A DNA stretch of 64,000 nt from Burhinus oedicnemus (taxonomy: Eukaryota; Chordata; Aves; Charadriiformes; Burhinidae), in NCBI GenBank assembly GCA_008921705.1, contig VFFE01007767.1, forward strand, positions 2,912,258-2,976,257, in the 5' to 3' direction. The position numbers were made by a program, and so were the translations under genes. Position 1 is the first letter of the stretch. Each line of letters opens with the position of its first letter. Of this stretch, positions 16,801 to 64,000 are shown piece after piece. A model generated the notes under the pieces. That model ran no database searches. It had not been told where the DNA came from and saw only the letters and a list, made by a program, of their open reading frames with translations.

Positions 16801-19800
16801 CACTGAGAGTGTTTTCAAGAATTTGACTGAAGGAGTAGAAGGAGGAAAAGCTCATATTGCATAGAAAACGCTGCAATATCACATTATGCCAAGAACACTC
16901 ATTTACCAAGGAAGAAAAGAGTCCCCCCCTCACAACTGCAGACCACAAAGTGTTTTTAAACTGTGCACTGAGACAAATGATAGCAATTGCCATGTGAGCG
17001 TGCTTGCAGCACTCGGGTGCAGAGGGCAATGAAAGGTGTCACATACTGGCCCTTCAGCTCTGGCAAGTGCCCTTGTTTTAGAGCTGGCCTGTTTTTCACA
17101 CCACACCGGGGCTTGCGATAGTCTCTTCAGCTGGCTGAGATGCCTACTGCGTGCTATGGAGTCCAGCAGTTGCCTTCTGTGGGGATGTTTTCCCTCTCTC
17201 ACGGTGCTCTGAAGCAGCAAAGGAACTGGTGCGATGCCTTCTCTGCTTCTGGGCAGCATGAGAGAGCATGGGGTCATTAATTTGGAGCCAGATGCCCTAT
17301 CCCAGCTGTACATGTAATGTTTTCCAAAAGTCTTCTGTCTGCAAGCAGCATTTTCAGGGTAAAACTGCTCAGTACCAAACAGCAGTGTGATTTGACCACT
17401 CTGATGTGATAATTCCAGCTTTTTTGAATTTAACTACCTAAATGCTTGAGTTCCTCATATAGCTCATGGAGAAAGGTTGGTGCCTCTTCAAGGCCTCCGA
17501 AAAGACCCCCTTGCTTCAGACTGGGAGTCAAGTTAGAGGGCAGAGAAGAGTTAGGTACACAGAAATTTATTTCATGCAAATGCAAATCTTTGGCTTTCCT
17601 GCAGCCAAGGACAACTTACATTTGTACAGGAAGAGTAAAAGTGCAGCCCTTACAGTAGGCTGGATATTTTAAATCTACAGATCAATTGCTGGTCTGTGAC
17701 ATGGAAAATGAGCGATTTTTATTGACTACAAGTTTCAGTTTAGAAAGGGGGAAAAAAAGGTACCAAGCTAAGATCTGTCTTTTACATAAGAAATCACAAT
17801 ATTATGAGTTGTGGCACCCTGGCTATGTGAAGGGATTCTGCAGTCCAGCTGCTAGATGAAATCCCAGCCTTGCAGCAGTCAGCAGTAGAACTCCCATCTG
17901 TTGGAAGGATTTCAGGATTTCCCTGATATCCTTGGGGCGTTCTGAACTTGATCGAGTTTTTTCCATGAAAAAAGGACAATGGTTCCAGAGTAGGTAGTTA
18001 TTTTCTACATCACAGAGTTGCCATCTGGTTGTTCTCACAAGAATCAGACCTCCAGTGAGTGGCAGGTTTGACTGAATTTGACAGGGGAAGGGACAGAAAG
18101 CTGCTGTAACATCAGACATCAATCATGCAGAGCTTCACTGACCTAAAAGAGTGGAAGGATTCACCTGACACACTGGTACCCATGCAGGGAGGCCACTAAA
18201 TGTGAAAGTGACTGCCATCATTAAGAAGATGGATTTCTTTGTTAGTCTGTCCTGTAATTTCTCTGTACCTCAGTTGTATTCAGGAGACCTTATAGTTTTT
18301 CCCCTGGTGGCTAATTTAACAACCTGAAATGTTTTGTTTCATTTTCACCTTGGATGTCATTATTTTTAAAAAGAGACAAGCTGACCCAGGACTATGCAAT
18401 TAAATTGTTAAATTTGTAAACAGACTAGTAATACATTGGTAGCAGTTGGGATGTTCTTTACTCTTCATGACTAGGTAGCTGGAGAAAGCTGCTGTTACAA
18501 TTAAACAGCATTTTGTATACTATTACAGTGATTCCTAATTTTTTTCCTAGTCACATATTTTCATCTAAGCATTTTAATAACCAGCATTTATGAATTTATT
18601 AGATAAAACTGTTCCTCTCATCTTATTTTCTTATGTTTCTAGTGCATGAATCTGTGTCGCTCCTCAATACCTCATTTTCTTTTATTTCTTTTTCCTCTCA
18701 TATTTACACGTATATCATACTTTGTCTTCATCCAATTTTTACTGCCATATGTCTATGAAGATAATATTTTTATCAATGAGGCACACATCGGAGATGAATA
18801 GCAATGTGCAATGAAACCTACTAAGCTGTGAATAAAAGAAACCTTAGTTGGACTTTGTAGTTAACTTTCTGCCTAGAAAGATTTATTTTTCTGTAGAGGA
18901 TATTTTACATAATGTAGTTTAAAAAAGAAAAGCTCAAAGCATAGGTACCTGGACTGGTTTGGGGAAGAATGAGTCAGGGAGATTATAGCAGGGCATGAAG
19001 TCAAGCTTTCACATTTCAGGCATTAATTGGCCACTAAGAAAGAACGGCTGAAGCGTAGGAGGAGGGTTAATTTTGGTGGGCACTAACATAGAGCAGATAG
19101 CTTCCTGGTGGTTTTATTTCTCCATCCTGCTCCAATACAAATTAAGCCTGTGAAGGTTTTTTAAAAGTCAAGGCAAGTAGATGTGAGCACACTGCGCTGG
19201 GATGAGGACATTACGTCTTCTCGCAGTCTTATCACCTCCAGCCGAGTCTTCTGCTGCAAGTATCGCTTTGCTGCAGTGAAGTGGGGCTGGGCTGCAGCAC
19301 CTTTGAGCATTCCAGCACACCATAGAGCTGGCTGTTCGGGTAATGTTTTCCTCTAGATCAAGAGAGTGTATGTCAAAAGATCATGTTTAAAAAAACTTGC
19401 AAGTATTGGAGGTGCTTCAGAGCTAACTCCAGTTCCTACAACCAGTCTAATTCAGTTGGTGGCTGAAATCCTGACCATGCTGAAGTCAGAGATAAAAGTG
19501 ATGCTCACTCCAGAAGTCCCAGGAGCCCACTGGCCACCTTTGCTGCTTGCTGCCACCAGAGCTGTTTGGGTTTGATGGTGCTTTTTTGCATGCCTACAAG
19601 CCGCAGTGACAGAGGGTCTGCATTTTCACAGTGGGTAAGGTGATACCCTCTCCGGACCCTACACTTCTCAGGATGACAAGCTTGCCACAGATGGACAATT
19701 TGGCCTTTTTTAAGCTAAACTGTAAAGCCACCCTGGGCAAGCACAGAGGACAGAAAGGACCTGAGGCTGTAAAATTACCCACTTCCAACCTGCTGCTTCC

Positions 19801-37864: not shown

Positions 37865-38001
37865 CTGACCAACCTTATGAGGTTCAACAAGGCCAAGTGC
37901 AAGGTCCTGCATGTAGGTTGGGGCAACCCCTGGTATCAATACAGGCTGGGGGATGAAGGGATTGAGTGCAGCCCTGCAGGGGGTACTGGTGGATGAGGTG
38001 A
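37865..38001 (+). mobile_element. CR1 LINE composite, segment 1 (forward ORF2 fragment)
   Basis: Forward frame reads [18 protein letters not shown] and then [12 protein letters not shown], the part of CR1 ORF2 just after the reverse transcriptase core. It ends at TGGTGGATGAGGTGATTCT, where about 200 bases of the element are skipped and the sequence folds back into the reverse-oriented segment next to it. The same ORF2 region occurs again, inverted, in that neighbour, so this is a duplication and not simply the missing part. Confidence 0.85.
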
Positions 38002-39090
38002 TTCTACAGAGTAGAGGGGCAGAATCACCTCCCTCAACCTGCTGGCCATGCTTCTTTTGATGCAGCCCAGGATATGGTTGGCCTTCTAGGCTGCAGGCGC
38101 ACATTGCCGGCTCATGTTGAGCTTCTCATCCACCAACTCCCTCTCCTCAGGGCTGCTCTCAATCCATTCTCTGCCCAGCCTGTATTTGTGCTTGGGATTG
38201 CCGTGACCCACATGCAGGACTTGGCCTTGTTGAACTTCATGAGGTTTGCACAAGCCCACCTCTCAAGTCTGTCCAGGTCCCTCTGGATGGCATCCCTTCC
38301 CTCCAGTGTGTTGACTGCTCCACACAGCTTGGTGTCGTCAGCAAACTTGCTAAGGGTGCACTCAATGCCACTGTCCATGTTGCCAACAAAGATGTTGAAC
38401 AGCACTGGTCCCAGTACCAGCCCCTGAGAAATACCACTTATTACTGGTTTCCACTTGGACATCAAGCCACTGACCAAATTCTTTGAGTCTGGCCATCCAT
38501 CCAGTTCCTTATCCACTGAGTGGTCCATTGGTCAAATCCATTTCTCTCCAATTTAGAGACCAGGATGTCATACAGGACAGTGTCAAACGCTTTGCATAAG
38601 TCCAGGTAGATGACATCTGTTGCTCTCCCCTTATCCACCAAAACTGTAACCCTGTCATAGAAAGCCACCAAATTTGTCAGGCCTGACTTGCCCTTGGTGA
38701 AGCCACGTTGGCTGTCACCAGTCACCTCCTTACTTTCCATGTGTGTTAGCAGAGTTTCCAGGAGGATCTGCCCCATGATATTGCTGGGCACCGAGGTGAG
38801 ACTGACTGGCCTGTAGTTCCCTGGGTCTTCCTTTTTTCCCTGTTTGAAAATGGGGGTTATATTTCCGCTTTTCCAGTCAGTGGGAACTTCACCAGACTGC
38901 CATGACTTTTCAAATATAATGGAAAGCGGCTTAGCAACCTCATTTGCCAGTTCCCTCAGGACCTGCAGATGGATTTCATCAGGTCCCATGAACTTGTGTA
39001 CCTTCTGGTTCCTTAGATGGTCTCGTACTTGATCTTCACCTACAGTGGGCAGTTCGTGATTCTCACAGCCCCCTGCCTTTGCCTTCTGCC
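38002..39090 (-). mobile_element. CR1 LINE composite, segment 2 (inverted reverse transcriptase part)
   Basis: Read on the minus strand this is the CR1 reverse transcriptase: [20 protein letters not shown], the [20 protein letters not shown] block, a [21 protein letters not shown] block, and [11 protein letters not shown] carrying the FADD catalytic motif. It continues through the MSRQCAPAA region to VILPLYS near 38.01 kb. Frames are mostly open but interrupted by stops near 38.1 and 38.46 kb, so the copy is inactive. Its right end abuts the forward 3' part. Confidence 0.93.
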
Positions 39091-39530
39091 CACATGAGAA
39101 GGACATGGACCTGTTGGGGTGGGTCCAGAGGAGGGCCACAAAAAGATCAGAGGGACAGAGCATCTCTCCTATGAGGACAGGCTGAGAGAGTTGGGGTTGT
39201 TCAGCCTGGAGAAGAGAAGGCTCCAGGGGGACCTTATTGCAGCCTTTTAGTACTTAAAGGGGGCCTACAGGAAAGATGGGAACAAACTTTTTAGCAGGGC
39301 CTGTTGTGATAGGACAAGGGGTAATGGTTTTAAACTAAAAGAGGGAAGATTTAGACTAGATATAAGGAAGAATATTTTTTATAATTAGGTTGGTGAAACA
39401 CTGGAAGAGGTTGCCCAGAGATGCCCCATCCCTAGAAATATTCAAGATCAGGTTGAACAGGGCCCTGAGCAACCTAATCTAGTTGAAGAGGTCCCTTGCA
39501 ACTCTAACCATTCTACAATTCTATGATTCT
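39091..39530 (+). mobile_element. CR1 LINE composite, segment 3 (forward 3' end with tail)
   Basis: Starts in the ORF2 region equivalent to [16 protein letters not shown], about 15-20 codons after where the inverted segment stops. It runs through the ORF2 end and 3' UTR to the tail TTCTACAATTCTATGATTCT. The order 'inverted 5' part then forward 3' part, with a small gap at the breakpoint' is what twin-primed LINE insertion produces. Several stops show that it is not functional. Confidence 0.9.
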
Positions 39531-42500: not shown

Positions 42501-44188
42501 CTTTTCTCCCCTTCTATCTCCATTCCCCCCACTTTCACGTTCTTATTTTTTTTCTCTGTACTTTTCCAGTGGAAAAAAGGCAGAGGGGAAAGTTGGAGAA
42601 ATTGTTTTCATAAGAAGATGTAGAAACTTTTGAAAATCCTTTTTCCACAGTTCTTTTAGAGAAAATACTGTTTAACCCAAGGAGATATATATATTTTTTA
42701 ACATGACAGGCTTTTACTTCAAGCTTCTGCTAAAGCCAGGCATTAACACCCTTCTAGCAAGGAAATTACATCCAGCCTTTTAAGACTACTTTCAAGAGAT
42801 GCCATTTAACAGGATTGCACTAGGCTGTTGGGAGAGCAGTTAGTTTCTCTTCTGAAAAGCCTGTAAACAACAGATGCAATCCTGACAGTCCCAACATGCC
42901 TGCAGAGCTCCAAGGAAAGACTGCAGAAAGCTACACAAACTGCAGCTGGCCAAGAAACTCTGTTTTAGCAATAATGATTCAATTATTGAATGCAAACAAG
43001 ACTTTCTTGGATGCCCCAAGAGCAGTCATTTGGCTTTCAGGCATCAAGAGCCAGACAGTGAGACATGCGTACATGTATAGATATAGAGGTGCAGAGGTCC
43101 AGTAAATTGGCAACAATAGCTGTTTCCAGGCCCACTCACTGCCTGTTTTTTTAGGCAGCACTACCACAGCAGCACAGGCACTGCCACTACCACAGTTAGT
43201 ATCTTCTGAGCCTTATTTTAAGGCAAAACCTCCAAGCAGAGGAATGGACACCACGCTTGGTTGCACAGCATGCTTCTAGACACCTTTGTATGTTGTACAA
43301 GTGAAGGTCAGGCTCCTGAAGAGAAACATGGGGTGAATCCAAGACAGCCATTGTACGTAGCAGTCAAAGATCAAGATGTTTTGGGCTGTTATGGAAAGGG
43401 CATAAACCGTACCAGCTGCTGAAGGCCAGAAAGGGCAGCTTTGGATGCAGCCTGGAGGAGGATGGTTTTCTTTTCACGAGTATTTCACAAATACTTCTTT
43501 TCTCCTTTCTCTGAATTTCATCCTTGGCTAATTTAGGCTATGTTAATGATGTCTGTAATCCCCTTCTTAGAGTAATTATTTCTTTGAGCCCTTCAAATCA
43601 GTACAAATGCATGTACACATCATGTAAAATTTCTCTTTTTTGCTTTTAGTGGAAAAGGCTGAAAGAAATACCAACTGCTCTCAAATTGTTTTTTGGAGGA
43701 ATCTGTTTAAAAATTATTCCTAAACAGAGGTCATTTGGTAGCACCTCTCTTTTCATTCAGAACTAATAAACAATAACATGTCCAAAAAGAATAAACAATT
43801 GTGTAATTTAAAATAATTGTATAGTCTCTACTGAGAACACGAGCCTTAACTTGCACAGACCCTGACAAAAGCATAGCTGTGCTACTGCAAAGATCTGACC
43901 AGGACAACCCCGCACCCCACTGTCAAACCTTCCACATATGAGAGAGAGCCTATGAAGCACCAAGGCGGTACACATTTCTTCTTAAAAAAAACAATTCCCA
44001 TTTTTCTTCTCTGCATTACTATAGCAATGACCAAGAGAAACTGTACTGCTTTTCTGACACAAGTATTTATTAGTGCAGTAGCGTCAAATGTAATTTTCAT
44101 CTTCTCAGATCTACAGTTATGACAGTGTGAACAGGTAGACTAGATGATCTCTAGAAACGTGTACTATTACTGTCATTGTAATACTGTC
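39531..44188. other. Intergenic, nothing recognised
   Basis: About 4.7 kb without recognisable gene or repeat. Two pyrimidine-rich stretches, near 42.48-42.56 and 43.5 kb, are the only compositional features. Confidence 0.55.
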
Positions 44189-44791
44189 CCTGGGCTGCAT
44201 CAAAAGAACCATGGCCAGCAGGTCAAGGGAGGTGATTCTGCCCCTCTACTCCACTCTCCTGAGACCCCACCTGGAGTACTGCGTCCAGCTCTGGGGCCCC
44301 AACATAAGAAGGATATGGACCTGTTGGAGCAAGTCCAGAGGAGGGCAACAAAGATGGTCAGAGGGCTGGAGCACCTCTCCTGTGGAGACAGGCTGAGAGA
44401 GTTGGGGTTGTTCAGCCTGGAGAAGAGAAGGCTCTGGGGAGACCTTATAGCAGCCTTCCAGTATCTGAAGGCGGCCTGCAAGAAAGCTGGAGAGGGACTT
44501 TTTCAAGGGCATGTAGCGATCGGATGAGAGGTAATGGCTTCAAACAGGAAGAGGGTAGATTTAGATTAGATCTCAGGAAGAAATTTTTCACTCTGAGGGT
44601 GGGGAGGCACTGGAACAGGTTGCCCAGGGAAGCTGTGGAGGCCCCATCCCTGGAAGTGTTCAAGGCAAGGTTGGATGGGGCTTTGAGCAGTCCGATCCAG
44701 TGGGAGGTGTCCTTGTCCATGGCAGGGGGGTTGGAGCTAGATGATCTTTAAGGTCCCTTCCAACCTAAACTATTCTATGATTCTATGATTA
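44189..44791 (+). mobile_element. Young CR1 LINE, 5'-truncated, forward orientation
   Basis: Begins in ORF2 at CCTGGGCTGCATCAAAAG. It reads through [20 protein letters not shown] and the [20 protein letters not shown] block, then the 3' UTR ending AACTATTCTATGATTCTATGATT. It is nearly identical over its length to the inverted copy at 53.1-53.8 kb, sharing uncommon variants such as ATGTAGCGATCGGATGAG. Both therefore come from a recently active subfamily. A one-base frame change early in ORF2 separates the LPLYS block from the QRRATK block. Confidence 0.95.
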
Positions 44792-48741: not shown

Positions 48742-48747
48742 TTTATT
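48742..48747 (-). promoter_or_regulatory. Candidate poly(A) signal of the minus-strand TNFR/EGF/jelly-roll gene
   Basis: TTTATT on the + strand is AATAAA on the minus strand (context TTTTTAATAAAGCAGTC). It lies about 270 bases past the stop codon, so a 3' UTR of about 0.3 kb would result. Other reverse AATAAA hexamers further left could extend it. Confidence 0.45.
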
Positions 48748-49014: not shown

Positions 49015-50534
49015 CTAAGATGAAATCCATAAAATAGATATACTGGTTCCATGTTCATGAGTGATCTGATTGATTCTTCCACGCACACAGTCAAGAGAAA
49101 CTGATATCAGTGTTCCATTATGTACTTCAAAAGATGCACGGAGGGACACACTTGTCCACATGCTTCCCTCTGGCATCTGACCTCCAATCTGCTGAGCAAT
49201 TGCTGTGGGTTGCATGTGATCCATGGTCAACTGATTGAGAGTCATTTTGAGCACATTGCATGAGTGGATTAGCTTTAAGTTAAATGCAAGGCTGGCAACT
49301 CCCTTTTCAGTAAAAATGAAATATTTCTGTGCAAGCTGTCCAGAAGAAACCAGCTGTATCTGTTTCTCATTGGATGAGACCTGGGTGAAATCCAGTAATT
49401 TGTTTCTCACAGCTCCAGTAGGCAGACCTGTAACAGAAACTGTGGCTGATATGGCACTAGAAACTGCTGAAGGGATCCAGATGAGGCTAAACATACTAAT
49501 TCCAGAACTATCTCCAAAATACCGAACATTACACTGTGCAGGAGAAAGTATCTCAAAGCTAATCAGATCTCCAGCACCAACTTTTGTGGCCCCAGAAGCA
49601 GATATTGATGTGTCTCTGTAATTTACCCCAGACTTAAATACATTCATTAATTCTCTGTTGGTACCATTCCTATTGATATAAGAAATTAAGGAGAAGCCCT
49701 CCCGGACACATGTATGACCCATGGAATACAACGCTTGGTGGAACACAAATTTGACAACACCGGTTTCAGTGAACTTTATAGCTCTGCCATCATGAGATAG
49801 ACTTAGCATGTAAGGGTCGGAAACAGATATTATTTTAAAGGTAGGTCGATAGTTGGTTTGGTAATGTATTGCTGTTGACATCTGTGCACTGAGTGCCACA
49901 GCTCCTGTGTCGTGGGACAACCAAAACAAACTGAGTGCGGTATTAAGGTCATAAATATTTAAGTCTCTACTTTGATTGCAGAATTGATTGGGGCTCCTCA
50001 AATACACAGAAAGAGTTTGGCTGGGCTCCACTTCAGCAGCACTGCTTAAACTCGTGCTCTGGAAATACTTTCCTTCTGGCTGTTCAATGCGAACACCACT
50101 CAGTTCATAGCCTTCCTCACTGCCATTTAGCTTTAAGGAAAGTTGCAAAAAATTCCTGCAGGTGTGCTTTACTGCAAAATTTAGGTCAGTCCACAACAGA
50201 CCATGTTGCCTGAATAGCAGGCTGTTATCTTCAACAGATAGGATTTCACAGGGAAGCTTTCCCTTTATCTTCAAGTTCAAGCCAGAGTAGACCTGAGAGA
50301 TGCCAGACTTTACAGAGGGTAGAATGATGTTTGCAGCCCAAGACTCTGAGAGCTTGTTTTCACTGGTTGCTGAACAAACTGTATCACTGACAGTGGAACA
50401 AGGCACAGCCACCATTCCATCTTCACATTTTAAACATGCCTGGCATTCCTGCATTTCCTTATTAAAGAAATACTCCTCTCCACACAGTCCCAAAGCTGCA
50501 TCTTTCTCAGCAATTCCAAGGCAACGGAAACCAC
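49015..50534 (-). CDS. Terminal exon: EGF end, TNFR-like module and three C1q/TNF-like repeats
   Basis: A 1,520-nt exon, open throughout, entered in phase 1 after CTGTTCACAG and ending in TAG. It first completes the EGF-like module (GGFRC) from the small upstream exon. A TNFR-type module with six cysteines follows (C287 to C323 of the predicted protein), ending CSTVSDTVC. Next come three repeats of about 150 residues. Their anchor is F-x(3)-G-V/L-x(5)-F-x(n)-C (FTETGVVKFVF and FTEKGVASLAF in copies 2 and 3, FRQHGLLWTDLNF in copy 1). Each copy closes with a tryptophan strand: SLFWLS, SLIWIPS, SILWISS. That pattern fits C1q/TNF jelly rolls, but the fold is inferred. At least four NxS/T sites suggest an extracellular protein. 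I do not recognise the gene. The reading frame is certainly coding. Confidence 0.92.
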
Positions 50535-51640
50535 CTGTTCACAGGAAATGGACAACTTTTATTGTCATACCTTTAAAACAATAAATCTAAGAACTCTACA
50601 GCTCCACATATCAACTATCTTTGATAACACATCTAATTATAAGAGAGAAAACAGAGGACAATTATGATGTTAGATCACTTTCTGCTATTAAAGGAACCTT
50701 GATAGCAAACAGAGGAAATACTAGGGGTAACTCACCTTGTCCAAGTAGAATCCACTGGTTTAGAGTGGGAAAGGAGCAAGACAGGGCTGCATAGGGGCAA
50801 TTCTAACCAAACCCAGTAATGTTTTAGATACAATGATGTCGCTGGAAGGGCCCTCTCTCCCTTCCCCTAGGTGAAAGGCTTGGTGACTAACTGGTGTACT
50901 GAGTAGCAAAGATATTTTCAACTAATGAAGAGTTCCCCTATACAAGAAGAAACGCGCGCTGCCTGCCTAGCCATGTTACTGTGTAGCACAGCTGTAGCTG
51001 TGATTGCTAAAGCAGTGCTTTTCAACCCAAGGGACATGGATCCCAGGCATTCTGTGTACAGTTTTTAAAGAACCTGCAAGAGACAAGTAGGAAAAACAAA
51101 ATTGTGAACAGCAGGCTTAGAATCATTATGCAGAAGTCCACACATTTAAAAGGTGGAAAACCACTGCCCTAAGACACAGGACAGCATTGGTTGTGACAGT
51201 CTAAAGTTAAAATAAAACACTGCTGCAAACAGTGAAGAGAATATCAAGAGGTGCTATTTGACATTACTTTGTGCTGTTAAATGGTACACCATGACCTCAG
51301 TGGATCAAAGAATGCACACCCAAAGAGCAGGTTTTAAAAACAGCCTGTAATTTTCTATGGCAATTTTCCAAGAGCACTGCCAGCTGCCAGTGTCTCCAGC
51401 TGTAGTAACCAGTGCCCAAAACCTCTGTGCACAGAACCTTCAGGATCTAAATCAACACACAAGATTTGAGGCACCCTAAAGAATAACCACTTGTAGTTTG
51501 GGCCTCAAAGCTTAATTGCTAATGCACTTGCTTCTGCTTTTTTACCATCATAATCAAAACTCAATAATCATCATTCTTATAGCTCTTCTTAAATATCCTT
51601 TACTATCTAAATACTGTATTTTTTAGATAACTGTGTCTAA

Positions 51641-51895
51641 ATGTATCTAAATACATTTGATTTATTCCTCAGCTGGAAAGTTGCTGTATTTGGGCTGGAA
51701 TTTGCTCTGAGACTGGGACTACAAGCATTTGACACGGACCCCAACAAGCCATTTTTCTCCATTGCTAACCCCAAGGTGGAGCTGGCTATGCAGACTGCTG
51801 ATGCAGGCAGAAAAGCACACCACATGTATTATGAACTGCAAGACAGAGCAGTATACGCACACCTGGCCCACAAGGGAGGTCACAATATTGGCTAA
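51641..51895 (+). other. Unexplained open frame with acceptor, antisense in intron
   Basis: An 84-codon frame starting ATG TAT and ending GGC TAA. A credible 3' splice site (TTGATTTATTCCTCAG|C) lies just inside it. Downstream the residues read WKVAVFGLEFALRLGLQAF, then DTDPNKPFFSIANPKVELAM, ending HLAHKGGHNIG. The composition is protein-like, with balanced charge and few serine or leucine runs, unlike most chance frames here. I know no family for it and no partner exon was found. It could be a last exon of an unknown + strand transcript, a remnant pseudogene, or chance. Confidence 0.25.
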
Positions 51896-53097
51896 AATTA
51901 ACTTCTGGTACTACGTTATTCAGCAGAGAACACCAGACACTGTGTTAATTTATAAAGCCTTTATATATTCACTCTTGTATCTCTTTGTCTATTTATGTTT
52001 CATTCACTTCAGCAATGAGTCTCCACTAACACTGATACATAGGACTATACAATTTATGATGTGAGAATGCTCTTTTGAAGATCAGGTATCATTTTCTCAA
52101 AAGAGCTCACTGCAGAATAGTAAGATTTTTCCATTTTAAAAAAGTCAAGAGAAACTTAACACTTTGTTCCCTCTGAAAGCATCTGGCTTTTTTTTATGAG
52201 AAACAAGTAAAATAAATAAGATCACATTTTTTTCAACTAAGAACATTCTAGAGAAAATAGAGACAAAAAATCCCAGACAAACTTTCCTTCTGAAATCAGT
52301 TTTAACCATGGTGTAATTGTATACATGACACTTCTTAAGCAGTTCTACTTCTCATATCCATGGCTCCCTCATCACTAAGAAATGCTATTGAGTACACAAA
52401 TATAGCTGGTTCACATAGCAGAGAAGACCTGCAGTAGTGCCTAGAAACATTTTTTACGCTATTTGCTTCTTTAAAATATTTTAACGTATATTTAAGGATT
52501 TTTGTACATATCAGGTCTTCCAAATACATGTGGTGACTACTCTCATCAATTTGTTGTCTAGTCTTTTATTGGTTAGATCTGCAGCAGGCATTCCCCCTGC
52601 ATGTACTTCAAAATAGGTGACTTCAAAGCAGCACAGAGACTGCTTTATACTGTGGACACAGTGGCAAGAGCAGCATCCTACCCTTTGCCCAGAAGAAGTC
52701 AAGCAGCAAATGACAGCCAAACATCAGAAAGCCAGCACAGCAGCATGCTGTGACTGCATCCTACTTCTCTTTACTGCCTGACAACCTCTCCCACCTCTTC
52801 CTGGCTCTTGCTCTGGGCACTGCTGCACCTGGTTTAACAGTGAACAGCCCAGCTGTACTCAAGCTGGTTTTGTGAAATCAAGTATATCTGCAGCACATTC
52901 ACCAGCCCTCGCCATTCAAGGAGGCAAGGCAATTGCAAGGCAATTAGAATAAGCCATGCATATATTTTTCTGCTGGCACTACTCCTAACTGCCTGATGTA
53001 AAGTTGACATTCAAAGAGACTAAGTATAGGACTCATCTCTTTTTAAACCCTCTATGTCAAATTTCGATCATCACAAATCAACACAGGTAATTACAAA

Positions 53098-53760
53098 TCA
53101 TAGAATCATAGAATAGTTTAGGTTGGAAGGGACCTTAAAGATCATCTAGCCCCGACCCCCCTGCCATGGACAAGGACACCTCCCACTGGATCGGACTGCT
53201 CAAAGCCCCATCCAACCTGGCCTTGAACACTTCCAGGGTTGCAGCCTCCACAGCTTCCCTGGGCAACCTGTTCCAGTGCCTCCCCACCCTCAGAGTGAAA
53301 AATTTCTTCCTGAGATCTAATCTAATCTACCCTCTTCCTGTTTGAAGCCATTACCTCTGATCCGATCGCTACATGCCCTTGAAAAAGTCCCTCTCCAGCT
53401 TTCTTGCAGGCCGCCTTCAGATACTGGAAGGCTGCTATAAGGTCTCCCCAGAGCCTTCTCTTCTCCAGGCTGAACAACCCCAACTCTCTCAGCCTGTCTC
53501 CACAGGAGAGGTGCTCCAGCCCTCTGACCATCTTTGTTGCCCTCCTCTGGACTTGCTCCAACAGGTCCATATCTCTCTTATGTTGGGGCCCCAGAGCTGG
53601 ACGCAGTACTCCAGGTGGGGTCTCAGGAGAGTGGAGTAGAGGGGCAGAATCACCTCCCTTGACCTGCTGGCCACACTTCTTTTGATGTAGCCCAGGATGC
53701 AGTTATCTTTCTGGGCTGCAAGTGCCCATTGCTGGCTCATGTTGAGCTTCTCATCCACCT
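53098..53760 (-). mobile_element. Young CR1 LINE, 5'-truncated, reverse orientation
   Basis: The left edge is the tail TCATAGAATCATAGAATAG. Reading on the minus strand yields 3' UTR, then the ORF2 end ([20 protein letters not shown]), and further up DEKLNMSQQWALAAQK, where the copy is cut off near CATCCAC. It is almost base-for-base the inverted counterpart of the copy at 44.2-44.8 kb and extends about 60 bases further 5'. It lies in an intron of the minus-strand gene in the same transcriptional sense. Confidence 0.95.
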
Positions 53761-56070
53761 ATCAGGTGTGGATCAGGGCCTATCTGTCTAGGTTCTCATT
53801 CCTCTTCCCCCTGCATCCCACAGTAAGTTTTACAGTAAGTCCTCTTTAGCTTGCATGGCATTCTGAGGAGAGTGCCTTTGGTTGACTCCACTTGGTGTGT
53901 TCACACCAAAGACAATAGTCTGACCACTCTCCCATGATTGTCTAAGAAGGGAACGATGCACTGGACTCCATTTTTGCTGGCTGGGTACCTCCAACTGTCA
54001 TTGCTCCTTGATGACTAGCCTTTAATCAAATAACCTAACAACTCTCATCCCAGATAAAAGGAATAAAAAGCAGCAGGCAAAGAATGTATGATGTAAAGGG
54101 AAGTGGAAGGGTGAAGAAAGAGAGACTCCTAGTGCATGTTTCTTTATTGTTATTTGTTCTGTCTCCCTTCACACTGTACAGTGAACATGAGTTGCTACAG
54201 ATGCAACAACCTTTGCGTGCAGCTCAAGAAACCACATACAACATCTGGAACTCATATGTCAGATCACATCCCTAACTCCCCTACATTACTGAAAACAGGC
54301 ATTCAGTTTCAACCTCCCTTTTGACAAGTTAATTGCACTTGTATAAGATAATGAGCTATCAAGAACAGACAGGCTGAAAGTAGCGATCCTCTCTAATAAA
54401 AAATAAAAAGAATGCTTCCTCTTCCATGACAGATGGGGATGACATTGACAGGACATTGACTCCTGATCCAGGTGATGGGAAATAGTCTGCTTTCACATCT
54501 TTACAAGCCACCATTAAAACTGGGAGAGGAGGAATCAAGGGAAGAGTCTTTCCTTTCAAATACATTGCTACTACCTTTCTGTGGTCTGACACACCACCAC
54601 TATCTGTCTGTTTCTTGGCAGTATTTTGCCCTCACTTACTTCCCTCCAGCAGTTGTATAGCCCCACAGTTGGTCTGGGTCTCCCCACCACAGAGTCCACT
54701 GGATAAATTCCTTACAGCCTTCTCTCTTCCCAGCCACAGACTAGAGCAATACCAAATGACTACCACATTGGTGGCTCTCCTTTCCTAGGGCTGGGGCCTT
54801 GTGGGCTTCCTTCCACAAAACCACCAACTCAACCAAACGCAGTCTCTTACTAAATAAGAGACAAACCCTTACACCTTTCCAATGCTCTGTCTCAGATGAT
54901 GTGCCCTAAGCTGTCTTGCCTCTAACTGCCCAACACTATGGCTGTCTAAAAGTGTCTTTGCCTCTTTTGTAAGACTGATGGTACCTCCTCTAAGGCACTT
55001 GCCACATAAGGCAACACTAAGTGCTCTCCTCCCCATGTGATTTCCAGTTTCCTGTGGTGTTTGTAGTAGTACCACCTAAACCATCACAGTTCCTGCCCAG
55101 AGGAAGTAAGGAGAATACAAGTGAGCACGTCCTCTTTTAACCCTTTTCTAGGACCAATTCCCTCCCACTTTTTTCTACACCAGTGGCAAGGCAGGAATAG
55201 TACAAAATCACCCATAATCAGCTGAAAACAGCCCTTGCCACTCAGAGAGGCCACCCTCTTTTTACAAGTAAGAAGCCTAGAGAAGGAAAAACAAAACCTA
55301 ATGAAGTCCTCCCTTGGTTATTTGACTGGGAGCCCTCAGGTAGAGGTCACAACTGGTGAAATGCTCTATTTGACCAGAGTTCCTTTCAAGTATTTCTGGC
55401 TGACCAAAAATTAGGCAAGTAGAAAGAAACCTAGTACCTGCGTGTAATTTGCTCAGTGTCTGTTAATTTTGCTTTTTTTGTCTGACTGTCATGAGAAGTA
55501 ATGAAGGCAAAGTCTGCAGTGCAAAACTCCAGTCAAATATGTTCTTAAATGTCTGAAAAATTCCCCCAAGTCCCCGCAAATGATGGAAACTGTTGATTGT
55601 TCCTCAGTATTGGCAATATTGTTGCTAAAGGAGAGTAAGATTGATGGAGGGAGGCCTTATAAGAACCTTCATTAGATCAAATCAAATATCTACCCCAGTG
55701 CAGCGGAAGGAAAATGACAACTATTTTTCTCCATTAGGAATAATATCTTTGATTTTGACTCCATTTGCACGAGCATAAAAAAGAAGAAAGTCAGGTCATA
55801 AGGGAAAATTAAAACCAAATCATACAAAACCCCATGAAAATAAGGTAAAAGGAACTATCCAATGCTCCTAGCGGATATTATGTTCTAAGCAGCCCATTGC
55901 CACAAGAACTGCTATCAACTTAGAGCTGAGTGTTTTCCAACCCCTTTGATTCCAGCAAGCTGAGCATGTCATTACTCAAACATACAGGCCTGCGTCCTTA
56001 TCTATCTCTTTGGCCTGTTCCTGAAGATCTAATTATCTTCATTCTTTAATTATCAGAGAATGTAACTTAC

Positions 56071-56137
56071 CTGGAGTATTCAGGCATTTTATCCTCTCAC
56101 CACAAATGCTTGGAGATTCAGTGCATTCATCTCTGTC
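56071..56137 (-). CDS. Small exon encoding an EGF-like module
   Basis: A 67-nt exon between TTGTGATTTACAG and CCAG|GTAAGT, phase 0 in and phase 1 out. It encodes DRDECTESPSICGERIKCLN and TPG. Joined to the next exon it continues GGFRC, giving the EGF signature D-x-D-E-C-x(6)-C-x(5)-C-x-N-T-x-G-x-F-x-C. The DxDEC start and N-T-x-G are typical of calcium-binding EGF modules. The sixth cysteine of a normal EGF is not clearly placed and may be C287 of the following TNFR-like part. The phases match both neighbours exactly, which is the main reason to accept so short an exon. Confidence 0.88.
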
Positions 56138-57464
56138 CTGTAAATCACAAGAATCATACTGAACACTTTAACGCAACAACTTAAATTTGAAACAGGCACT
56201 TCTTCAGGCTCTGTGACACCCATCTGCCAGTAAAAGGCACACATGGGGATGGAGAGGGGGCTGATCTCATAAACATGTTGGAGCAAGACAACTTGTTTTC
56301 GATTTGTCATCTGTTTTAACAAGTTATCCAAAAAGACTGAGCAGAAAGCTAGTAGTGCGCAGATGACGAGCTAAATGGATTGGTTGTACAACTAAGGCTT
56401 GTTATGATGCACAATCTGTGAGACAGTACCACATCCCTGAGAAAAATGCATCACTTGAATGGTCTTAAGGATGTTGTAACAATCAAGACAGTGTTAGGAA
56501 GGGCTCTTAAAGACATTTAATCTGGGAGGAAGGTGCTAACTGAAAAACACACAACAAAGGTAAATGATAAAGTAGTATTTCCTATCAACAAGCCCTCCTT
56601 TCACCCTACAGCAGGCAGAGGGGAAAGAATAATATGCAACATTTGCATTTAAATTCTAGCATTAAAGAAAACTGAGACTAGCAGAGAGGGAACTGGACAG
56701 ACCCTTTCAGGTTCTCCTCTCAGTATCTTGGGCTTAGGTCAACAGCCATTTGGGCTCATGTTAAGCTAAGAATTGGGGGCAATACTTGGCAAACAAGACA
56801 CTGCTTTAAAAGTCAATTTCCCCATATATCTTAGGATATCTAAACAAAAGAAAGTGACCAAAGAACCATTTTATTTTGCTTACAGGCTTTTTTTGTATTG
56901 TATAATAAAATGTATTTTATAATAAAAAGTATTTAATAATAAAAGCATCTGTGTTCTATATTTTTTATATGTTAGTGTGTTATGTTTAAGCTGGAACTAG
57001 TTTTTACATTTAGCTGACAACTTTTGTTTCCAAACTTATAAATAAATATCTGACCTCTATTTTTGCTTGCTAAAGCTTTCCTCTGCTTTTCATAGATGTC
57101 TAGAAGTTCCTGTAGAGTGGACTGGGATTAAACAGACAAATTGAGCATCCATGACTATACATGTTTTAGGATGTCCTTTCCTACCATCATGAAAAGACTC
57201 AAAGTCCTGCCACCTGTCAGGTTTGGGAAATCATTACACCCAACAGGCACAAACTAGTGCCCCACTTAGAGCAGTAAATGATAAAGGGAACACCCATAAA
57301 AAATGTCAGGAAGACTTTGAAGTGCCATAGACCCATTCGGTAAAGCACATGCTTCAAACTGGATCTCTCTAGCTCTCCAAGTAGTTATTTCCAGAATGTT
57401 ATCCCAGTATGTCCCACAAAATACTTCACAAGAAATAACTGAAAGATACAGAATTATATTTCAC
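56138..57464 (-). other. Intron between coiled-coil exon and EGF exon
   Basis: A 1.3-kb intron with donor CAG|GTGAAA and acceptor TTTACAG. No repeat or gene was recognised. There is an A/T-rich stretch with repeated ATAATAAAA near 56.9 kb. Confidence 0.8.
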
Positions 57465-58003
57465 CTGGCAAATCCGATCAGAGTTTGCAGAACACTCGGC
57501 CATTTGGAAAAAACCAGCAGGACACAATGTGCATTTTTCACATTGTGAAGGTGTCTTCTGGAAATTGCAAAATTCATCACTTTCACAAAGGCCACAGTCC
57601 AGCAAAGACTCTCCAACGTTAATCACTTTTGCATCCACTTCTACTTTATGCACAGAGTATGACTTCTGGAGATGATTTCTGACCTGGTTCTGAAGTCCTT
57701 GAAGATGACTTTCAAAATAATTTTGAATATCTTCTTGCAAACTCTGAAATGACATTTGTTTCACCGTATCAAAAAGCATGCCATACTGGACTTTGATCAG
57801 ATCCATTTGCTCATACATTTTTCTTTGCTGTTCAAGAATCTCCCGTTGCTGGCTAACCAGTATCTGCTGCTGTTCAGCAAGTTTTTGCTGCAAATCGACA
57901 ATGATCTGCTGTTGGCTTTTTAGCATTTCAGTAAATTTCTCATGCCCTTTTGCAAGGTGCAGCTGTAGTATTAGGGCATCTTCAGATGGAACTTCATTTT
58001 CTC
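57465..58003 (-). CDS. Exon encoding Q-rich coiled coil and first TNFR-like cysteine module
   Basis: A 539-nt exon entered in phase 1 after TTTGTATTTCAG and leaving in phase 0 at CAG|GTGAAA. The first 26 residues (from GENEVPSEDALILQLHLAKG) lead into a long heptad-like helix rich in Q, L and I (KSQQQIIVDLQQKLAEQQQI, then LVSQQREILEQQRKMYEQM). This covers roughly residues 78-185 of the predicted protein and predicts a coiled-coil oligomer. The last third has eight cysteines (C204 to C246) in a TNFR-type pattern, including CEKCTLCPAGFFQMAECSAN and closing SDRIC. Helical oligomerisation followed by cysteine modules suggests a secreted or membrane-anchored multimer. The TNFR assignment is from the C-x2-C-x2-C-P-x-G-x-F signature. 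Confidence 0.92.
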
Positions 58004-60169
58004 CTGAAATACAAATGGTCGATTATTGTCCAAGAAAAGTAATTTTCCAGCTTGCTGTATTATCTCTTCAAAGGCATTCAAATTTTAATAAGTTAATGAA
58101 AAGTCTCATTAAATTCAAGTCATGATTATAAGTCCAGTTACTTTACCATCTTTGTAGCCCCTTCATGGGACCACAAGGTCATCCATTTCATAAGCAACAA
58201 CATTTATAGTTGTAGATATTTAAAAAGTTGTAATCAAGCCCCATGCTTCAGGGCATAAATCACAGGGGTTCAATAACAGATTAATCATTCCTGTGTACAT
58301 GTTCAAATACAGTAAAGAGTAAATGGTCAATTTTCACTGTAGAGGTGATAAAATAAGGTGATAAAACTTGCTGAGAATACTAAGCTATTAAGGGTAGTAA
58401 AAGTAAGGGTCAATTGCCAAGAGCTGCAAAAGGAGTCTATGATACTAAGTAGTGGCAATAAAATGGGAAAAAGAAACTCAAAGGAGATAAAGGTGAAATG
58501 AGGCACCTACTGGAAAAAAAAAAATCTAAGTGTCTTATATCAAATGTTGTACTTGTAGATTATTATCACCACTTGGAAATGATCTTGAGGTAATATATCT
58601 AGATATAGATCTTGGGCTACAGAGTCATGTAATCATCAGTTCAGTACCCAACAGAGGTCAAAAAGGCAAATAAAATGCTAGGACTAATTAGAAGAGGAAT
58701 ACATAACAGAAGAGAATGTATTGTTATGACATTATATTAATCAATAGAGCATCTTCAATACAGCATGCAGTCTTGGTTCTCCATCTCAAAAAAGCACACA
58801 GAAGAACTTGAAAAGTTCACAAAAGGGTAGCAAGGAACATCTCACATATGATACTGCTACAGTATGACAAAGCAGGTAGGATTTTTCAGGCTTGGGAAAA
58901 AAGAAGAAACCGAACAACTGTGCTATATTACAGGTGTCCTAAAGCAAGTGGATATGGGAAGACTCTTCACTCTTTCTTCCAATACAAGAATTAGGGGACA
59001 TTAAATGAAGGCAGCAGTTTCAAAACATTTTAAAAGTTCAACTAGATCCAGAAAGTTGCGGGCCCAATATATAAAATAAAATCAATTTGTGGCTAACAGA
59101 TACACAGACATCAATCAGGTTCAGGAAATCTGAGCAACAAACTGTCGGAGCTGGGAAAATGATCAAGGCAAGTATCATGCCATGCTTTCCACAGTATCCA
59201 CTGCTGGACACTGCCCGAGAGAGAATCCTGAATCCAATACGGTCGCTCATCTGTTCTTATGCAGCACTGAATTTTCTTCTTTTACGTGCAGAACATCAAG
59301 GATGAGACAATGAAAAAAACCATAGCCGGTTCCTGTTTATGGTTCCTAAAATATTTTGCTTTTCAGTTACTTTTAGTCACAGCATAAGGCACACATTAAG
59401 TTTTATTTTTCAGTATTCACTTAAATATTAAGGTAGTTTGCAGGGTACTGGATTTGAGAAAGTAAAGACCAGGATTCAGGAAAGGCCACACTCCCCATCC
59501 AAGATGGAAATTCCAGATCTTGAAATATCTGGCAAATTATATCCCCAGATCTCCTTCCGTTTAACATGAACAAGTAGTTCTGTGAAGAGAACCAATGTCA
59601 TCCAATTCTTTGTGGATTTCTGTTTTCCATTTGATTGGCTAAATAAGCAGCACTACCTTCACCACCTTTCTTCTTCAGAATACAGAGCAACAACCAAGCT
59701 GCTTTTGTCCTACCAGCTGAAAGGATTAACAGCTAGAGGCAAACTTTCAAGTGCTCACATTCGACTCTCTCCTCTCTTTAATCACCTCTTACAAAGTTTA
59801 TACAACCTTGCCTACTTTTAATACCTCTGCCCATTGTCAAATTTGCCTGAAATCAGCCCATAGGTTTGACAGATACTGGGCAGCAAGACAGTTACAAGCA
59901 CACTGTGATTGCCTATCAAGATTTTTCATCAACCTACATGGGCTCCATTTGTGCTTGAGGCTGGAAAGACATGAACAAATCCCTTTTCACAAAACTTCTG
60001 CTCTCAAAAGTCTGGCTTACAGCCAAGAATACAGGCAGAAGAGCACAGGTCTTTGCCATGTATTTTGGCCGTACAAGTGACAACACAGTGCAAAAGGACT
60101 ACGCCATGTGTCAGTAAGTTGTGTCTTCAAAGCAGATGGAAATTCTGTGAGGAAAAGGGTTGTCCTTAC
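58004..60169 (-). other. Intron upstream of the coiled-coil exon
   Basis: About 2.2 kb, mostly filled by an ancient CR1 in the opposite orientation. Splice borders are CCAG|GTAAGG and ATTTCAG if the upstream exon is right. Confidence 0.6.
58340..59265 (+). mobile_element. Ancient CR1-like LINE, degraded, forward orientation
   Basis: Successive diverged landmarks include the AAATGCTAGGACTAATTAGAAGAGGAATACATAACA region and the CTCCATCTCAAAAAAGCACACAG region. Then come GAAAAGTTCACAAAAGGGTAGCAAGGA (equivalent of the QKRATK block) and AGAATTAGGGGACATTAAATGAAGGC. The 3' part resembles 'ccactgtcggaagacaggatac...cggtcgttcttatg', here CCACTGCTGGACACTGCCCGAGAGAGAATCCTGAATCC with TCTGTTCTTATG at the end. 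This form is typical of old amniote CR1 lineages such as those abundant in turtles and crocodilians. It has no intact frame and runs antisense to the host gene. Confidence 0.75.
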
Positions 60170-60378
60170 CTGGCCAAATAAAGCATATGCACCTAGAAAA
60201 ATAGCTTAAGAAGGCTGGCATATTGAGGCTTTGAGTACCATGTTGACTACTGTTACTTAATTGTTTCTTGGTAGATCTCCCTGTATGTTTTCTGAGAGGG
60301 ACTTCATCCTCTTGTCCGGTGTTAACATGATTTCTTACATGCTTGGATAAAACGTGAGAACAGGGCTCCATGCTAGTA
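60170..60378 (-). CDS. Probable first coding exon of the TNFR/EGF/jelly-roll gene
   Basis: A 209-nt exon-like unit: acceptor ATAACTGCATTGCAG, then seven bases, then an ATG at 60371 in a strong context (AGCATGG, A at -3 and G at +4). It is open for 67 codons to the good donor CCAG|GTAAGG. It leaves in phase 1, exactly what the coiled-coil exon needs. It encodes a charged, Cys- and His-containing N-terminus (MEPCSHVLSKHVRNHVNTGQ) and then a short, mildly hydrophobic stretch (MPAFLSYFSRCICFIWPG) just before the junction. That stretch could be a poor signal anchor (type II topology) or, starting at its internal Met, a poor signal peptide. Its arginine weakens both readings. Splicing and phase support it, while the residues alone do not, so another upstream exon remains possible. 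Confidence 0.45.
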
Positions 60379-63434: not shown

Positions 63435-64000
63435 GTGAGGATGTAGAAGTGGCAGATAATCTGTCATAAACTTGTGCTCTTTCTGAATGTGTGACAAGTT
63501 CCTGAAGGCTAAAATAAATGTATGATTGCCTGGGCTGGAGGCATACATCTACGCTGTCCATGAAATGTATACACATCATCCTGCAATCATGCAAAAGATG
63601 TACTGTGCACAGAACAAAAAATATTGCAGTATTTTCTTTGCCTCCTGCCCACCTAAGCCACATGCTGAGCACACAGAGCAGCCTCATCTCACAAGACACT
63701 GCGAAGAGGACTGGGAACACACGGCAGCCACCCTGAGTACTAGAGGCAACTCTGTGCACTCTGACTAACCCCAAAGACTCCTAAAGCTCAGCTAAGCTTG
63801 TCCGCAGCATATACACTGCTGCACTCAAGAGGTTCCTAGATTTCCTTCAGGGGGGTATCTTGCTGGTCCACACACACTACTGACCACCACAGGCAGTTCT
63901 GCCTGAATCTGGTCCTTCTCCATGAAGTTACATCTGTACCACACATCTGTAAGACAGACTCCTGCCACACCTGCATAATGAGATTTATCCACAAAATTTC

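Follow-up and report, generated by a model that had tools for sequence, protein, structure and literature searches.

Results and Discussion

A vertebrate gene with a predicted single-chain trimeric head

Analysis of a 64,000-nucleotide stretch of DNA from Burhinus oedicnemus (hereafter the window) identified a gene on the minus strand between positions 49015 and 58003 which, judged from the sequence, is real and which is almost certainly the bird ortholog of a vertebrate group annotated as 'nell3' or si:ch211-37e10.2. The overall explanation favoured here, and considered rather better than evenly probable, is that of a vertebrate ortholog with a predicted single-chain pseudo-trimer of C1q/TNF jelly rolls as its head, for which a role as secreted oligomeric ligand or organiser is proposed more tentatively. 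An earlier note on this DNA had proposed the gene and its three jelly rolls; what it overlooked, and what the structural model makes the main point, is that the three are very probably assembled, within the one chain, as a pseudo-trimer.

Exons 2, 3 and 4 show AG/GT borders, with phase 0 at the exon 2/3 junction and phase 1 at the exon 3/4 junction, and together encode 708 residues. Exon 2 (57465-58003, minus strand, as are all features of the gene), delimited by its AG/GT borders and phase and by ortholog matches of about 180-190 residues, carries a long helix and the first TNFR cysteine module. Exon 3 (56071-56137), recovered independently in a splice-site and phase scan of the intron for compatible cysteine-bearing exons and matched by orthologs, holds the first half of an EGF_CA-like module (DRDEC...CLNTPG). 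This module is completed by GFRC in exon 4 (49015-50534), a 507-residue open frame with ortholog matches that continues through the second TNFR module and the three jelly-roll repeats to the stop codon. A strict six-cysteine EGF pattern search gave no match because an intron splits the module, which the splice-aware scan recovers. Annotated vertebrate orthologs align across all three exons from end to end, which bears out the claim that the gene is real. About 270 bases past the stop, a pattern search found a candidate polyadenylation signal (AATAAA, 48742-48747, minus strand), and an Rfam scan of the window gave no match.

Orthologs and distribution

A first search of 5.8 billion proteins (expect value, E, up to 0.001; the best 120 of 390 matches were taken) returned birds, turtles, alligator, squamates, amphibians, bony fish, sharks, a ray, platypus (P0027) and dunnart (P0028). 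Identity to exons 2-4 of the window was 98% for stork, 82% for dunnart and 64% for Danio, with values of 61-67% for the teleosts listed. Among the 14 bird rows fetched, 13 were 94.8-97.9% identical to exons 2-4, and the window is bird DNA by similarity because of its identity to these 14 rows. The remaining row, P0011 from Chloebia gouldiae, is a gene model of 778 residues that is 85% identical over 778 columns and has extra sequence absent in its neighbours, probably an intron taken as coding.

A second search, restricted to proteins of about 254-807 residues (best 120 of 161 matches), revealed a second teleost copy named si:ch211-252f13.5 (e.g. P0175, P0181, P0201 and P0203) at about 50-54% identity; outside teleosts no second copy was seen among the matches listed, no genome-by-genome search having been made. 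A third search, with a shark stretch as query and limited to longer proteins, gave two matches in all, a turtle and the sea lamprey protein P0221, which is 40% identical to the shark query stretch and 37.7% identical to the 708 residues of the window over 791 columns. No invertebrate was present among the matches listed from these three length-limited searches. The similarity extends from end to end through helix, TNFR, EGF and TNFR modules and the three repeats. Six of the proteins (P0048, P0054, P0085, P0096, P0104 and P0106) have 883-928 residues encoded in contigs of only 3.2-4.1 kb; since the window gene has introns between its parts, the simplest reading of their uninterrupted frames is that they come from spliced transcripts.

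No placental name appeared in the best 120 of 390 or the best 120 of 161 matches, many rows of which are nameless and which come from a protein database clustered at 90% identity, so that members lie hidden inside clusters; a placental ortholog would be expected to score below dunnart (1026 bits) and above the teleost ranked last (789 bits). Loss of the gene in placental mammals is therefore likely on these comparisons. The earlier note had suggested that the gene was retained in birds and other vertebrates and lost in mammals. Retention was borne out, with orthologs down to lamprey; the loss has to be narrowed, as platypus and dunnart possess the gene and it is placental names that are missing among the matches listed. 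Nor is the gene unrecognised, as the note had described it: NCBI and UniProt annotate it as uncharacterized, as 'nell3' or, in two reptiles, as 'leucine-rich repeat-containing'.

A tree built from 32 rows placed the window with the two other birds (100/99) and recovered the main lineages together; the second teleost copies branched within teleosts on a longer branch. Against this clean picture, sharks and rays joined the ray-finned fishes (96/82), the expected position being outside all bony vertebrates; the branches of lamprey (very long) and Denticeps were long; and support was weak for 8 of the 29 inner branches. The tree is consistent with one vertebrate ortholog group, with the deep branching left unsettled.

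Domains and predicted structure

Pfam TNFR_c6 (PF00020) matched two stretches of the window gene, the first in exon 2 (57468-57587; E 6.7e-07), with 30.1 bits above the cut-off of 29.4, and the second in exon 4 (50374-50484; E 2.8e-06), with 28.1 bits against the same cut-off. In ten full-length orthologs TNFR_c6 was found in all ten, with two stretches and above cut-off, and EGF_CA in all ten, always below it; collagen, laminin-G and VWC were found in none.

The three repeats, R1 (49918-50349), R2 (49474-49905) and R3 (49021-49461), were located with an AlphaFold2 (AF2) model of one ortholog, the cuckoo protein P0007, in which R1 corresponds to residues 239-382. In this model all three jelly rolls are present with good confidence, have the C1q/TNF fold and pack against each other, so that the superfamily fold arranged as a trimer was found in the predicted structure only. 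In structure comparison 376-400 residues aligned with single-chain TNF/C1q trimers at 2.9-3.3 A; R1 was not among the single-domain matches listed and aligned only inside whole single-chain trimers. Across three repeats and six species including lamprey, a glycine, two cysteines and a closing tryptophan were common to 18 of 18 repeat rows, and the two cysteines, spaced 57-67 residues apart in five proteins, suggest one disulphide per repeat. Profile comparison related R1 to R3 (E 9.3e-06, probability 63) and, weakly, R1 to R2 (E 0.0011, probability 8). Pairwise scores set against the best of 300 shuffles were in agreement with this ranking (R1-R3, 59 against 47; R1-R2, 49 against 48; R2-R3, 39 against 67).

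The long helix was mapped to 57684-57923 from AF2 helix 2-81 of P0007, its start possibly lying earlier. Confidence drops from 82 to about 50 along the helix, which is a probable coiled coil on the model; a hydrophobic-period test, run without a control, did not separate 3.5 from 3.6. Taken together, the Pfam matches and the structure model agree with the domain order first proposed, in which a glutamine-rich helix precedes a TNFR-EGF-TNFR segment and three jelly rolls of C1q/TNF type close the chain.

Several observations weigh against the reading of the gene as a jelly-roll-headed ligand. R2 and R3 are not recognisably similar (profile comparison, E 0.66). At the sequence level no C1q/TNF match exceeded the Pfam cut-off in the ten full-length orthologs: C1q was found in none and TNF weakly in one (E 0.18). 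Searched against the PDB, neither the exon 4 sequence nor a 102-row family profile returned a jelly roll, the matches being EGF/TNFR chains and weak noise. The model itself is a prediction for P0007 alone, without inter-domain error values, and AlphaFold run on the exon 4 sequence by itself yielded a model too poor to use (mean predicted local distance difference test score 29.9). Model confidence is low for the TNFR/EGF modules and for the last part of the helix (blocks of 28-61 within residues 111-230 of P0007), so that stalk and oligomer are tentative assignments. The entry 5kca, one of the engineered structures compared below, was taken to be a single-chain trimer from its chain length. 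Finally, invariant columns in 14 aligned orthologs, counted with domain borders one residue off, made up 43% of the TNFR-EGF-TNFR part as against 35% of R1, 42% of R2 and 30% of R3; many of the invariant columns of the former are cysteines. With conservation equal to that of the head, this stalk need not be a passive element and may do more than hold the head.

The first exon

The four-exon model of the earlier note stood for exons 2-4 and failed for exon 1. The proposed exon 1 (60170-60371, minus strand) was rejected as part of the gene: no match (E up to 10) was obtained for its 67 residues among the 221 relatives fetched, and the orthologs have another first exon. The predicted length of about 775 residues falls with it, since exons 2-4 account for 708 and, in all but three (P0007, P0008 and P0011) of the 14 bird rows listed, a further 139-276 residues come before that part. 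In orthologs the sequence before ENEVPSEDAL consists of a signal-peptide-like start and then a Cys/Pro-rich stretch, which ends near GVQLTCDxKPG in most rows carrying it.

An ortholog-type first exon was not found within the window. When 86 ortholog N-termini were compared with it, a single marginal match was obtained (E 0.048) at 19187-19276, far from the gene, and the GVQLTCDxKPG motif (up to 2 substitutions) occurred once, at 54341, out of place in the exon 3/4 intron. Probably the true first exon is situated past position 64000, or else it falls within a gap of the assembly. The ortholog N-terminus also has a repeated CxGxxC motif: in 101 proteins with more than 120 residues before the helix, five copies were counted in 15, four in 38, three in 32, two in 14, and one and none in a single protein each. 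The N-terminus of lamprey P0221 retains CKGIEC.

Possible working and alternatives

The signal-peptide-like start of the orthologs and the absence of a clear membrane helix from the protein core suggest a secreted protein. Its helix, some 80 residues long, would join several chains, the EGF/TNFR modules would form a cysteine-rich stalk, possibly also binding something, and the head would serve as a pre-assembled ligand or organiser domain. A head assembled in advance from diverged repeats can offer three unlike surfaces; its faces may differ, which those of a homotrimer do not, and could engage a partner that is itself asymmetric or a separate partner at each face, oligomerisation adding avidity. 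High identity among birds would argue for a fixed partner, as would three N-glycosylation sites of the head, each conserved in at least 101 of 102 rows. The closest mode of action would be that of the C1q-family organisers (cerebellin, C1QL, CTRP) or of a soluble TNF ligand, and not that of a decoy receptor. A role as secreted oligomeric ligand or organiser is put forward tentatively, at somewhat less than an even chance, as the conservation of the TNFR-EGF-TNFR part, equal to that of the head, lowers the odds of a ligand or organiser and raises those of a decoy.

The protein could instead be a soluble decoy or carrier receptor, its TNFR modules binding a TNF-family cytokine and its jelly rolls acting as a self-capping or targeting domain. 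The conserved TNFR-EGF-TNFR part, the lack of a clear membrane helix in the core and the two TNFR modules, one above the Pfam cut-off on its own, all speak for this possibility. Decoys such as OPG and DcR3, however, have several contiguous TNFR modules, whereas here there are two single modules only, with an EGF module between them, and this role is considered unlikely.

No more probable is a structural matrix protein, in which the head would be an inert assembly knob as in the NC1 of collagen VIII/X and the helix and cysteine-rich N-terminus would form a network. The Cys/Pro-rich N-terminus of the orthologs and the EGF_CA-like module are in keeping with such a protein; a single-chain pseudo-trimer, however, is unable to fill the usual role of NC1, the selection of three chains, and none of the ten full-length orthologs had a collagen match.

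Immune recognisers usually evolve faster than this gene, whose high identity among birds (13 of 14 rows) and to the teleosts listed, and whose lack of a second copy outside teleosts among the matches listed (no genome-by-genome search was made), count against an innate pattern-recognition protein, a C1q-like lectin gaining avidity by oligomerising. This least probable of the alternatives shares the predicted fold with C1q and draws on the available text of two mollusc studies, in which a part in the immune response is reported for a mussel protein that has three gC1q domains in tandem (PMC5519582) and the three domains of HcC1qDC5 bind lipopolysaccharide and peptidoglycan (PMC10672478). The decoy and innate-recogniser roles suggested by the earlier note are thus the poorer fit, given the bird identity (P0011 excepted).

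Neighbourhood in the window

A probe sequence for the C-terminal part of GAD65 matched the plus strand at 1675-1791 (71.8% over 39 residues) and 2452-2625 (96.6% over 58 residues), probably the last exons of GAD2, in keeping with the GAD2 neighbour named earlier. Open frames at 53135-53702 (minus strand), about 38000-39250 and 44140-44750 hold what we take to be remains of avian CR1-like long interspersed nuclear elements, the first of which sits inside the exon 3/4 intron.

Literature and novelty

No study of the nell3, si:ch211-37e10.2 or si:ch211-252f13.5 gene was recognised in the open-access literature, supplements excluded, which agrees with the earlier view that no function had been published. 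The same was true of open-access literature on the TNFR/EGF/C1q domain combination, NELL relatives, TNF superfamily evolution, GAD2/APBB1IP with chicken or TNFR, and genes lost in placentals. The terms nell, EGF and single chain do not occur in the main text of PMC7674686. The available text of PMC10416458 describes 268 frog genes lost in placentals, among which this gene may be included.

The gene's presence in public annotation was already known, as were three-tandem C1q chains in molluscs and two-domain chains in CTRP4. Within the literature searched, the predicted pseudo-trimer and its occurrence alongside TNFR and EGF modules and a long helix appear to be new, as are conservation from lamprey to dunnart and apparent absence in placentals. 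As the gene is kept in platypus, dunnart, birds, frogs, fish and lamprey and no placental is listed, it should be important elsewhere and dispensable or replaced in placentals. We give an even chance to the broader proposal that a secreted protein uniting in one chain TNFR modules and a natural TNF/C1q pseudo-trimer with three diverged, unequal faces, a ligand-receptor hybrid, has existed since before the lamprey split as part of a possible signalling or organiser system which, lost in placentals, went unnoticed in mouse and human.

Comparison with known systems

NELL1 and NELL2 share with this gene the fish name nell3 and an EGF module, and NELLs carry a coiled coil. The NELL family is defined by an N-terminal thrombospondin/laminin-G-like domain and VWC domains; membership was rejected, as TSPN/laminin-G and VWC were found in none of the ten full-length orthologs at E up to 5, and 'nell3' looks like a misnomer. 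The cysteine-rich modules of the TNF receptor superfamily are present as two TNFR_c6 stretches in all ten orthologs; the contiguous ligand-binding array of such modules, usually with a membrane anchor, is absent, an EGF module splitting the two and the core showing no clear membrane helix. The TNF ligands APRIL, BAFF, CD40L, TL1A, RANKL and LIGHT have one domain per chain, homotrimerise and are type II membrane proteins. Among the structure matches listed they were 7-16% identical to the modelled jelly rolls, and the bird gene falls outside their family in having three domains per chain and an N-terminus which, judged by eye, is signal-peptide-like.

The collagen stalk of C1q/CTRP proteins was found in none of the ten orthologs. 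CTRP4 (C1QTNF4) is not known to have a TNFR/EGF stalk. Like the bird gene it is a vertebrate protein with tandem C1q domains, of which it has two, not three, in the available text of PMC10206021. Proteins with three tandem gC1q domains are reported, in the available text of two studies, from mussels and a scallop: HcC1qDC6 (PMC5519582) and HcC1qDC5 and CfC1qDC-2 (PMC10672478). HcC1qDC6 shares three tandem jelly rolls, one chain and a signal peptide with the bird gene; the description given for it comprises a signal peptide and C1q domains, and the word 'trimer' is absent from the main text (PMC5519582).

The closest structural counterparts are the engineered single-chain trimers 4zch (APRIL-BAFF-BAFF), 5hkj and 5hzf (C1q head), 5kca (cerebellin-1) and 4dou (adiponectin), which, like the predicted head, have three jelly rolls in one chain about a common axis. 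Their entry titles, or in the case of 5kca its chain length, mark these as laboratory constructs in which separate or repeated chains were fused, whereas the repeats of the bird gene arose naturally, have diverged and persist as far back as lamprey. It is as trimers of separate chains that C1q/TNF proteins act, and engineers fuse three copies into one chain, thereby fixing or diversifying the faces. A conserved natural single-chain trimer, if true, would mean that evolution had reached the engineers' solution, and would offer a template for asymmetric trimers.

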